From the NCBI RefSeq assembly GCF_014898155.1, contig NZ_CP062938.1, positions 434,001 to 498,000 on the forward strand: 64,000 nucleotides of DNA. Direction: 5' to 3'. The notes below the pieces were generated by a model, which did no database searches, was not told where the DNA came from, and worked only from the letters and a program-made list of their open reading frames with translations. Below are positions 16,785 through 20,992 of the stretch, piece by piece (positions within the stretch are counted from its first letter, which is position 1; each line of letters begins with the position of its first letter). Source of the stretch: Bifidobacterium eulemuris. GTDB lineage: Bacteria; Actinomycetota; Actinomycetes; Actinomycetales; Bifidobacteriaceae. The translations under genes were made by a program, and so were the position numbers.

Positions 16785-16988
16785 TTACCGCACGTCCTTC
16801 ATAAGAGCTTTGCGCAACTGGGAAAGTTCGTTTTCGGAAACACCCCAGTTATGCACGACATGGTATGAGGGATAATCGAAAAGCACAGTGGCCAAATCAG
16901 CTTGCCGCTCACAAATCATACGATGGTTGACGGGGTTGAAATACACGTCGAACCCTTCGACATGCCCACGCGCACGCAAATCAGTCAT
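16785..16988 (-). CDS. Small unrecognised protein, third gene of the DUF4160 cluster
   Basis: I start at 16988, where the ATG overlaps the stop of the DUF4160 gene by 8 bp (ATGACTGA). The 67-residue product (MTDLRARGHVEGFDVYFNP...) has no domain I recognise. The tight overlap implies co-translation with DUF4160. It could be an antitoxin-like or partner protein, but that is only context. The surrounding DNA is visibly richer in A and T than the neighbouring conserved genes. Confidence 0.5.
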   Translation of the reverse strand: MTDLRARGHVEGFDVYFNPVNHRMICERQADLATVLFDYPSYHVVHNWGVSENELSQLRKALMKDVR

Positions 16989-17253
16989 AGAAGCGGACAT
17001 AGCCGAACATCTCCTGCCATGCCATGACAATACTGGGCGAGACGGAACGAAGGAACTCTGCGATGCCGCGCAACTCCTTTGTTGTCATATCCGAACATTC
17101 TTTCTCCAACTACACATCGCCATTTTCGAGGATCCAGAATTTCGCCGCGGACGGAGATTGTCTGCCACGAGCCACGTGCACGTGAATAGGCTCGTCATTT
17201 TCATTCGCCCAAAAATAAACGAGAAAACCACTGATTCTATACAGCCCAGGCAT
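16981..17253 (-). pseudogene. DUF4160 family gene interrupted by an in-frame amber codon
   Basis: From ATG 17253 (GGGGGAG 6 bp before it) the frame encodes 47 residues, MPGLYRISGFLVYFW followed by a PIHVHVARG motif, then meets TAG at 17112-17110. The same frame continues without another stop for 42 codons (LEKECSDMTTKELRGIAEFL and a WQEMFGYVRF end) to TGA at 16983-16981. Together the two parts make a 90-codon protein with the shape and length of DUF4160 (PF13711): an N-terminal beta region with the PxHxH motif and a C-terminal helix pair. One base change would explain the break. Read-through or a sequencing error cannot be excluded. Confidence 0.75.
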
Positions 17254-17497
17254 TCCCGACTCCCCCATGCCGTGCATATTCCATAATGGATTTCATGCCT
17301 CGAACTGTACTGACAAGGAACGTCGCAGCAACACGATCATCAAACCCGTTATTCTCGACAATGCGACCTTCCGGAAGCGTCACTTCGAGATGCCTATCCC
17401 CTTTATCGAAAAATACAAGAACATTGTCATCCACAGTCACATCAGAATGCGTGACTTTAACTCCATCCCCTGTTTCGTAATAATCGAAAATACGCAT
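17237..17497 (-). CDS. Small unrecognised protein, first gene of the DUF4160 cluster
   Basis: The ATG at 17497 has an excellent ribosome site (AAAGGAGG, 5 bp spacing), which rules out the longer frame starting at 17539. The 86-residue product starts MRIFDYYETGDGVKV and looks mostly beta-stranded in its first half, with a helix near the end. I recognise no family. Its stop lies 17 bp inside the DUF4160 gene, so the three small genes form an overlapping unit. Confidence 0.6.
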   Translation of the reverse strand: MRIFDYYETGDGVKVTHSDVTVDDNVLVFFDKGDRHLEVTLPEGRIVENNGFDDRVAATFLVSTVRGMKSIMEYARHGGVGNAWAV

Positions 17498-17597
17498 GAC
17501 AACCTCCTTTATCGCACATTGTACGCGACTATCCCCCAACGTGACTCATCGTTAACTCAACGTCTCATACCAGCCTCCGCCGCCTTTGGCAGGAATG

Positions 17598-18332
17598 CTA
17601 TATCTCGTCGATAAGGTGACGGAGCAGCGACTCGCGGCGGTTGATGATCATGTCGGTGATGCGGTACGACTCGGTGTCCTCATAGGAGATGGGATGTACC
17701 CGCCCATCGTCGAACGAGAGAATCGTGGCGTTTGGCAAGGCGAGCAGCACCGGCGAATGGGTGGCGATGATGAACTGCGAACCGGCTTGCGCGAGTTCGG
17801 ACAGCAACGCCAGCAACGAAAGCTGACGCTGTGGGGAAAGCGCGGCCTCGGGCTCATCCATCACACAGAGACCCGGACCGCTGAACGACTGTATCCAACT
17901 CATAAAGCTTTCGCCGTGGGATTGCTCGTGCAGTCTCGCGCGCGCATCGGACCTGCCGACGGCGTATTCACGCGCCTTGGTGGCCATGGTGAAGAAGCTC
18001 TCCGCGCGCAGGAAGTAGCTGGACTGAGTCAACGACCGTTGCCGCTCCACGAGTACCGCATCGGCCAGTTCGGACACATCGTCGTAGGTGGAGAAACGAT
18101 AGTTGCGCGTACCGCCTTCCGCATTGAATCCGCAGGCGAGCGCGATCGCTTCCAGCAGCGTGGACTTACCGGATCCGTTCTCCCCCACGAAGAACGTCAC
18201 CGGCACGTCGAATGTCACCTCATCAACGTCCTGTAACGCCGTGATGCCCCGCACATAGGAGCCGTCAGGCAACGCGTTCCAATCAATACGCACCCGACGT
18301 ACAAACAACGGTGATCCCATGCGCCCCACCAT
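17598..18332 (-). CDS. ABC-type AAA ATPase, stand-alone
   Basis: A 244-residue soluble ATPase: Walker A VGENGSGKST, Walker B LCVMDEPEAALS, and the H-loop FIIATHSP. This combination is that of SMC/RecF-like or OLD-type ATPases (AAA_21/AAA_23), not of a transporter ATPase, and no permease is near. Such single-domain ATPases often occur with nucleases or in defence loci; no nuclease domain is fused here. An ATG at 18320 is an alternative start. Role unknown. Confidence 0.8.
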   Translation of the reverse strand: MVGRMGSPLFVRRVRIDWNALPDGSYVRGITALQDVDEVTFDVPVTFFVGENGSGKSTLLEAIALACGFNAEGGTRNYRFSTYDDVSELADAVLVERQRSLTQSSYFLRAESFFTMATKAREYAVGRSDARARLHEQSHGESFMSWIQSFSGPGLCVMDEPEAALSPQRQLSLLALLSELAQAGSQFIIATHSPVLLALPNATILSFDDGRVHPISYEDTESYRITDMIINRRESLLRHLIDEI

Positions 18333-20070: not shown

Positions 20071-20568
20071 ATGGAAAGCATTGCAGCATTAAACGAGCGG
20101 CGCGCGGCATTGGATTTCACGCAGAGCAGCGTCGCCGACGCCATGGGTGTCTCCGCGCCGGTGCTTTCCCGCGCCGTCAGAGGCAATCCGACGCAGGAAT
20201 TCCTCGACCGATACAGCGACGCGCTCGACGAGCTGTCCCGCAAAACCACGCCACAACAAATCGCCGATATCGCGCGCCCAATCGCCACCAAACATTTCGT
20301 CGACGAGCTCTACCTGTTCGGATCCATGGCGAGAGGCGAGGGCACCGCACACTCAGACGTGGACCTCATCTACCGCTTCTCCCCTGAAGCCAACCCACCG
20401 ATTGATTCATGGGCGTTGCGCGACGACCTCGAACAGGCGTTCGGCCGAAACGTCGATCTTGTTCGCAAAGACTATTTCACCACGCCGCTGAGCGATCGGC
20501 TTGCGGAAACACAGCGGATACTATTCGTCAACAGCGTGACCTCCAAGCCAATGTTCCGCATCATCTGA
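20071..20568 (+). CDS. mntA: MNT-type nucleotidyltransferase antitoxin with fused XRE helix-turn-helix
   Basis: The 165-residue protein has an N-terminal XRE-like DNA-binding domain (residues 5-58, FTQSSVADAMGVSAPVLSRAV) and a minimal nucleotidyltransferase domain with LYLFGSMARGEG (G84, S85) and HSDVDL (D96, D98), the GSx10DxD signature. MntA enzymes inactivate the HepT toxin by adding AMP to a tyrosine near its active site. The classic MntA has no HTH, so this version probably combines neutralisation with repression. The hepT gene follows by 10 bp. Confidence 0.87.
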   Translation: MESIAALNERRAALDFTQSSVADAMGVSAPVLSRAVRGNPTQEFLDRYSDALDELSRKTTPQQIADIARPIATKHFVDELYLFGSMARGEGTAHSDVDLIYRFSPEANPPIDSWALRDDLEQAFGRNVDLVRKDYFTTPLSDRLAETQRILFVNSVTSKPMFRII

Positions 20569-20578
20569 AAGAAGGAAT

Positions 20579-20992
20579 ATGGACACGGCGTATAGCGACC
20601 GAGACCTCATCCATATCATCGCCATCATTCGCGCGCTGCATGACGCACAGCGTTTCCTCGGAGACATGACGCTGGAGGAATTCGAAACCGACGACGAAAA
20701 GCAGAACGCCGTGGCCATGGCCTTCGCCCGCTGCGGCGAGCACGTCAAAAGGTTATCGGAAGAGTTCAGGCGACATGAAAGCTCCATCGAATGGCGCAAG
20801 GTGGCGGGAATGCGTGACTGGATCACCCACAATTACGATGGATTGGATTTCGAAACGCTCTACCATGCGGTGATTGACCAGGCCCCGCAGGTACTCGACG
20901 TATTACTTCCCTACGCCGATCAAGCCAGCAACGAACGCATACAGGTCGCCGACCCTTTCGACGTGCCGAACATCGATGAAACGCCACGGTAA
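20579..20992 (+). CDS. hepT: HEPN-domain RNase toxin (DUF86 family)
   Basis: The 137-residue helical protein contains the HEPN catalytic motif as RDWITHNY: R79, H84 and the AMP-acceptor tyrosine Y86 (RX4HXY). This matches HepT of the HepT-MntA type VII toxin-antitoxin family, an RNase thought to cleave tRNA. AAAGAAGGA precedes the ATG. Both motifs are intact, so the pair should be active. Its role here could be stabilising the accessory region or phage defence. Confidence 0.88.
   Translation: MDTAYSDRDLIHIIAIIRALHDAQRFLGDMTLEEFETDDEKQNAVAMAFARCGEHVKRLSEEFRRHESSIEWRKVAGMRDWITHNYDGLDFETLYHAVIDQAPQVLDVLLPYADQASNERIQVADPFDVPNIDETPR

Follow-up and report, generated by a model that had tools for sequence, protein, structure and literature searches.

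Three small overlapping genes (A, B and C) in a 64,000-nucleotide stretch of the Bifidobacterium eulemuris genome, hereafter called the window, quite probably constitute a small, putatively mobile toxin-antitoxin module that resembles type II systems and is of the DUF4160 (DhiT) kind. It would differ from the latter in its antitoxin and in having a third gene, and the presumed toxin gene B is interrupted in this strain by an in-frame TAG codon. This proposal is built on the gene order, the overlaps, the conservation, the pattern of gene loss and the predicted folds. The sequence-only reading had suggested an undescribed toxin-antitoxin-like module; the likeness to toxin-antitoxin systems stands, but DUF4160 is already described as a toxin in the available parts of PMC8198452 and PMC12724237, and hence what is new is the variant rather than the kind of module.

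Organization of the locus

All elements of the module lie on the minus strand and are arranged as follows.

17237..17497, minus strand: gene A, 86 amino acids, upstream partner of DUF4160 and presumed antitoxin
16981..17253, minus strand: gene B, interrupted DUF4160 frame of 90 codons and presumed toxin, PF13711 above cut-off
17110..17112, minus strand: in-frame TAG, codon 48 of B, read from the sequence
16785..17000, minus strand: gene C, the third gene, 71 amino acids from the ATG at 17000 (67 amino acids from the ATG at 16988)
17237..17253, minus strand: A/B overlap of 17 bp, identical in length in 5/5 loci compared
16981..17000, minus strand: B/C overlap of 20 bp with the upstream C start, identical in length in 5/5 loci compared
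17518..17523, minus strand: TACAAT, a -10-like element recognized by eye, ending 20 nt before the A start

The compact, coupled arrangement and the 17-bp A/B overlap had been recognized from the sequence, whereas the B/C overlap of 8 bp given at that time applies to a C start at the ATG at 16988 and not to the likelier ATG at 17000, which yields 20 bp. Both C starts are present in 5/5 loci compared, AGGAG is located upstream of the ATG at 17000 and this codon is most likely the start of C. Ribosome-binding sites are indeed present before A, whose start is preceded by AAAGGAGG, and ahead of the B start (GGGGGAG); Shine-Dalgarno, -10 and HxH are used here as standard signal names. TACAAT was found by eye 20-23 nt ahead of the A start in 5/5 loci, and a scan with the sigma-70 consensus did not call it, returning one site on the opposite strand versus 1.2 expected. 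The module is also AT-richer, as had been claimed, with a GC content of 49% against 59% for its 11-kb surroundings, in a complete assembly of one contig of 2.92 Mb.

Directly upstream of the module lies a gene for an AAA_21-type ATPase (window 17598-18332, minus strand), which is accessory among relatives, with 64-65% matches in 2/18 other genomes plus one at 41%. A second toxin-antitoxin-like pair near the module is composed of an MntA-like nucleotidyltransferase gene with an N-terminal helix-turn-helix (20071-20568, plus strand; 54.2 bits, cut-off 60) and, after it, a gene for a HepT-like protein (20579-20992, plus strand; PF01934, 69.8 bits). The window genome contains a second DUF4160 gene (L082, G000:C1:2589500-2593100), which is intact, belongs to another branch and is followed by DUF2442, corresponding to an ordinary DhiTA-like pair.

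Gene B encodes a DUF4160 protein

Against PF13711 (DUF4160; cut-off 23), B scores 35 bits with its first half and 44.5 bits, over all 65 positions, when the complete frame is taken and the stop is written as X. As read earlier, the frame is interrupted by a single TAG at codon 48. The second half alone returned no row in a Pfam search, but positions 49-90 score 44.2 bits against a DUF4160 profile built in this analysis. The NCBIfam DhiT model gave 12.8 bits for the first half versus a cut-off of 100, and no DhiT row was obtained at E 0.1 for the intact relative P0007. Protein searches revealed 16 B relatives including the window's own, and 13/16 have 90-98 amino acids (10 close relatives of 90-98 and three more distant ones of 92), so that homologues do not generally end near codon 47. 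Besides the window's own, the short close relatives are a protein of 49 amino acids on a 503-bp contig and P0015 of B. parmae (51 amino acids), a species that also has an A relative, P0048.

Conservation of the A-B-C unit in Bifidobacteriaceae

Among 112 genomes of the genus, A is present in 5 and C in 6, and among 189 genomes of the family A is found in 6 and C in those 6 plus G047. B lies between A and C in 6/6 A-containing genomes, intact in four and broken in two, these numbers being small, one of the broken copies coming from a metagenome assembly, and counts across related genomes representing non-independent events. The earlier reading would have been refuted had the outer genes been conserved with DUF4160 nowhere, which is not the case: the A-B-C order with an intact B of 90 codons occurs in four of the 189 family genomes (G040, G046, G066 and G072). 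In the four other Bifidobacterium genomes, A homologues are 57-78% identical and occupy the same position, and the overlaps of 17 bp and 20 bp recur in 5/5 loci, that is in every A locus of the 112 genus genomes. In G172, a metagenome-assembled family member, B carries a frameshift, whereas the frames of A and C are uninterrupted. G047 has C with a B tail only (L083, G047:C36): a serine-resolvase-like gene, recognized by eye, lies upstream of about the last 21 B codons and an intact C, a configuration that suggests a deletion through A and B.

The six A loci represent five neighbourhoods, with flanks common only to B. ramosum (G066) and B. miconis (G046), which rules out a neighbourhood of its own for every A locus. 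Between these two genomes the identity is 98% for A, 93-94% for B and 67% for C, and C is the fastest-changing of the three genes. In 6/6 cases the A loci are AT-richer than their surroundings. Different neighbourhoods together with the lower GC content indicate that the module has probably been moved horizontally.

For pairs involving the window with computable dS, the dN/dS values of A and C are 0.12-0.22 and those of the two B halves 0.025-0.33, and dN is below dS in every such comparison for A, both B halves and C; several dS values were saturated and those pairs gave no dS. The low ratios in both halves of B make its loss look recent, and, judging from these comparisons, selection probably maintained a single B protein of full length until a short time ago. 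It is quite conceivable, although not the favoured reading, that after the loss of B the rest of the unit is a decaying relic without function, as the broken B and the occurrence in G047 of C alone beside a B tail would fit. Against this, A and C of the window are of full length, retain the conserved residues and show dN below dS, a signal that mostly reflects the time before the loss.

The A family and its relatives outside Bifidobacteriaceae

That the outer genes belong to no known family agrees with the profile searches of A and C, neither of which gave a library match. Pfam, NCBIfam, PHROGs and PADLOC returned nothing above cut-off for A, and a protein search retrieved 17 relatives including the window's own (P0049 was left out of alignment A4). 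An origin of A from DUF2442 was rejected, as 18 A members gave no row against Pfam DUF2442 at E up to 1 and hhalign assigned less than 1%, or at most 1.3% with A relatives added. Because a relation to DUF2442 is not detectable, the antitoxin role of A is proposed from its position and the loss pattern. DUF7723 shows no detectable homology to A, and no DNA-binding motif was recognized in A or C. Compared with the 77-amino-acid partners of other Bifidobacterium DUF4160 proteins, A gave a direct score of 9-10, and 19-25 when partners from other families were added, with shuffle maxima of 21-22 where run. A is not accepted as a proven relative of the 77-amino-acid partners. Values of about 25 were also reached by chance in other pairs (t2t4 versus the strong DUF4160 set, and the other-family partner set 'cor' versus DUF4160 sets).

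A relationship was obtained with f45 and f31, two families belonging to another class of the phylum, which we guess to be Coriobacteriia. There, an 86-amino-acid protein is encoded directly upstream of a type-1-like DUF4160 and aligns over its full length with A (hhalign 96%, E 1.7e-9), with a score of 51, a value compared with 150 column shuffles that did not exceed 21. A combined profile detects this partner in 34/65 and 9/119 genomes of the two other families, and its overlap with DUF4160 is 8 bp or about 1 bp. Among 58 other-family A loci listed, 30 were fetched and 28 retained (L148 and L159 were dropped, A covering less than 85%); a nearly full-length DUF4160 adjoins A in 18 of these and not in 10. 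In four of the ten (L139-L142, from four genomes) an MNT nucleotidyltransferase gene follows instead, 3-28 nt after the A-family gene, which may reflect a partner exchange or a neighbouring module. In the other six, first codons resembling DUF4160 (MPxLF or MPxVF) were recognized by eye, and L147 has its tail as well. Such remnants beside A-family genes imply that the partner often outlives the toxin.

Gene C and its predicted fold

C was found in Bifidobacteriaceae only, as far as searched, and its profile detected nothing in 46 other-family loci (L115-L160). A protein search gave 25 relatives, and the 25 rows of alignment A5, from which P0021 was left out, have invariant G12, N22, N25, R27, I29, E31, R32, D35, L36, L40, W52 and L62. 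With 25 members, no row was obtained against Pfam DUF2442 at E up to 1, and hhalign remained below 1%. The AlphaFold model of C (pLDDT 89.7) has strands at 9-14, 17-22, 27-32, 37-42 and 48-52 and a helix at 56-70, whereas that of the B relative P0003 (pLDDT 88.1) has strands at 4-7, 10-15, 24-29, 37-42 and 47-51 and a helix at 58-83. Both models thus contain five strands and a helix in identical order, the elements also coincide in register with the profile alignment, and the helix of P0003 is the longer one. The HxH motif of the third strand of DUF4160 is absent in C, in which that strand carries R-x-I-x-E-R.

In profile comparisons C and DUF4160 gave similar and colinear alignments. Against one DUF4160 set the score was 27.3 (50%), with column shuffles reaching at most 18.1 of 200 runs, and against a wider set it was 17.0, with shuffles up to 26.2 of 300 runs; a certain relationship by sequence was hence rejected as not robust with the wider set. 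PDB rows for the C and P0003 models are weak and different, with the PLK4 polo-box domain in both lists. Since the score holds against one set only and the PDB rows are weak, a derivation of C from DUF4160 is regarded as possible at most. The survival of C in G047 without A and most of B fits an independent role of C as well.

DUF4160 branches and one-sided loss

DUF4160 is encoded in 52 of the 112 genus genomes, and 75 stretches covering 76 of 78 DUF4160 places were examined (G083:C1:295790 and G093:C2:1531586 were left out). DUF2442 follows DUF4160 in 39 of them. In the other branch, which includes the window, the partner precedes it and belongs to the 77-amino-acid family (21 stretches), to DUF7723, which has DUF7724 on its upstream side (8), or to A (5), and the remaining two of the 75 contain DUF4160 fragments without any partner. 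Three-gene DUF7724-DUF7723-DUF4160 units in Bifidobacterium are represented by L049, L051-L053, L055-L057 and L066. The 77-amino-acid partners look distantly related to DUF7723 (hhalign 83% for one pair), and in L067 and L070 the unit of such a partner with DUF4160 is duplicated in tandem in two copies.

Counting as intact a DUF4160 with one open frame covering at least 90% of the profile, using the best copy per stretch, and as recognized a partner with at least 70% of its profile covered, intact DUF4160 was accompanied by a partner in 63/63 stretches, four of which are A-type. DUF4160 is broken in 12 of the 75, with the partner kept in 10/12 and none in 2/12; in three of these broken copies nothing but the N-terminal portion of the match is missing. 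The stretches were found via DUF4160, and partners standing alone thus go uncounted. Such a one-sided pattern is expected of a toxin and its antitoxin. Two general features of type II systems, small adjacent overlapping genes and an intact toxin never without its partner, are accordingly seen here, the first in A-B-C and the second in the 63 stretches.

It is unlikely that the genes instead form a small regulatory or defence complex with DUF4160 as a subunit and no toxin-antitoxin module, although there are three genes rather than two, C has its own conserved polar patch, and toxin-antitoxin-like neighbours and the AAA_21 ATPase lie nearby. Against such a complex stand the one-sided loss and the toxicity of DUF4160 in two tested systems (PMC8198452 and PMC12724237, in their available parts), and PADLOC returned a single weak row, RT_VIII (E 0.014), which spans 27 residues in the second half of B.

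The in-frame TAG of gene B

On the P0003 model, the TAG at codon 48 corresponds to the beginning of the final strand (47-51) and precedes the whole helix (58-83). Because most of the last strand and the entire C-terminal helix would be lost, the truncated B of the window should be inactive. No further stop interrupts the 42 codons that follow the TAG, which is also true of 2339 of 20000 base shuffles; the open frame is weak by itself as many shuffles stay open, and the evidence lies in the conserved residues. Breaks in other DUF4160 genes are located at different places. In L025 (G097:C21), which belongs to the DUF2442-paired branch, DUF4160 likewise contains one in-frame TAG, and the DUF2442 gene after it is intact. 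For B of the window, the most fitting interpretation of the TAG is a recent loss of the toxin and not a part of the working of the module.

The TAG is known from a single assembly, complete in one contig. A (P0001) was counted in two contigs, and P0021, 100% identical to C over its 67 amino acids, is listed with 667406 as the length of its longest contig, so A and C seem to be present on a second contig too. A sequencing or assembly error, with a normal and intact module in the window strain, would account for a frame that is conserved and open after the TAG, yet it is quite improbable, given that the genome is complete in one contig and that a broken DUF4160 is common in the genus (12/75 stretches). 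An intact, nearly identical B was likewise not found, although the length limit of the protein search would miss a 47-amino-acid B product. Readthrough of the TAG, or a switch at the TAG between a short and a long B, is very improbable: the open conserved frame and the one other DUF4160 of the genus with a single in-frame TAG (G097) would suit it, but a sense codon occupies this position in the other four Bifidobacterium A-type loci, the short B of B. parmae (51 amino acids, P0015) ends elsewhere, and the breaks in other DUF4160 genes are scattered as in ordinary decay.

Relation to known systems

According to the available text of PMC8198452, DhiT of Dickeya dadantii, a DUF4160 protein, inhibits growth and is relieved by co-expressed DhiA (DUF2442), and its Table 1 gives the toxin gene first and DUF2442 second at a distance of -3 bp. 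For the Persistence Enhancing Module of Thermus thermophilus, the available part of PMC12724237 reports that a plasmid without the DUF2442 gene yielded no transformants, while one without the DUF4160 gene still did. In what is available of both papers, the form of DUF4160 tested is the DUF2442-paired one. DUF4160 or DUF2442 is also named in the accessible portion of PMC12654330, and a term search for 'DUF' and 'DhiT' in the main text of a 2025 review of Bifidobacterium toxin-antitoxin systems (PMC12724246) gave no occurrence.

The window module shares with DhiTA the presumed DUF4160 toxin and small overlapping genes. It differs in that A precedes B in 6/6 Bifidobacteriaceae loci whereas DhiTA is toxin-first, in that profile comparison shows no relation between A and DUF2442, and in the third gene after B. 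The Thermus module likewise has DUF4160 as the toxin, a role that is predicted for the window, but consists of two ORFs with DUF4160 first and a DUF2442 partner. DUF7724-DUF7723-DUF4160 units (PF24849, PF24848) resemble A-B-C in having three small genes with DUF4160 directly after a small partner, and the DUF7723-type partner overlaps the DUF4160 start by 8 bp; however, the partners are of other families and the extra gene lies upstream, while in the window module it lies downstream. The f45/f31 pairs have a full-length A homologue directly upstream of DUF4160, but only two genes are present, and the C profile found nothing in the 46 loci scanned.

Proposed mode of action and significance

In the proposed toxin-antitoxin module, transcription would start from a promoter containing TACAAT just before A, and A, made first, may act as the antitoxin by binding and silencing B. 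Translation of B would be coupled to that of A and yield a growth-inhibiting toxin, with the HVHV motif as the likeliest candidate for an active site or a metal site. C, coupled in turn to B, could serve as a second neutralizer or co-regulator, and its ancestor was possibly a DUF4160 protein. With B cut at codon 48 in the window strain, the unit would be toxin-less, with at most an antitoxin or regulatory activity left, and the remaining A and C could protect against a related incoming module. More speculatively, and with a good deal of doubt, C may be a duplicated DUF4160 toxin that has lost HxH, gained a conserved N-P-x-N-x-R-x-I-x-E-R site and now acts as a dedicated second antitoxin or regulator of the toxin it came from, A and C being kept by strains that lose the toxin because they protect from incoming copies. 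If true, two proteins of unrelated origin would neutralize the module, and one of these would descend from the toxin itself.

For the toxin-antitoxin systems of this family, the proposed module would mean that DUF4160 gains at least one further partner family, that of A, and a three-gene arrangement, and the natural copies with a broken toxin make the toxin and antitoxin assignment directly testable.
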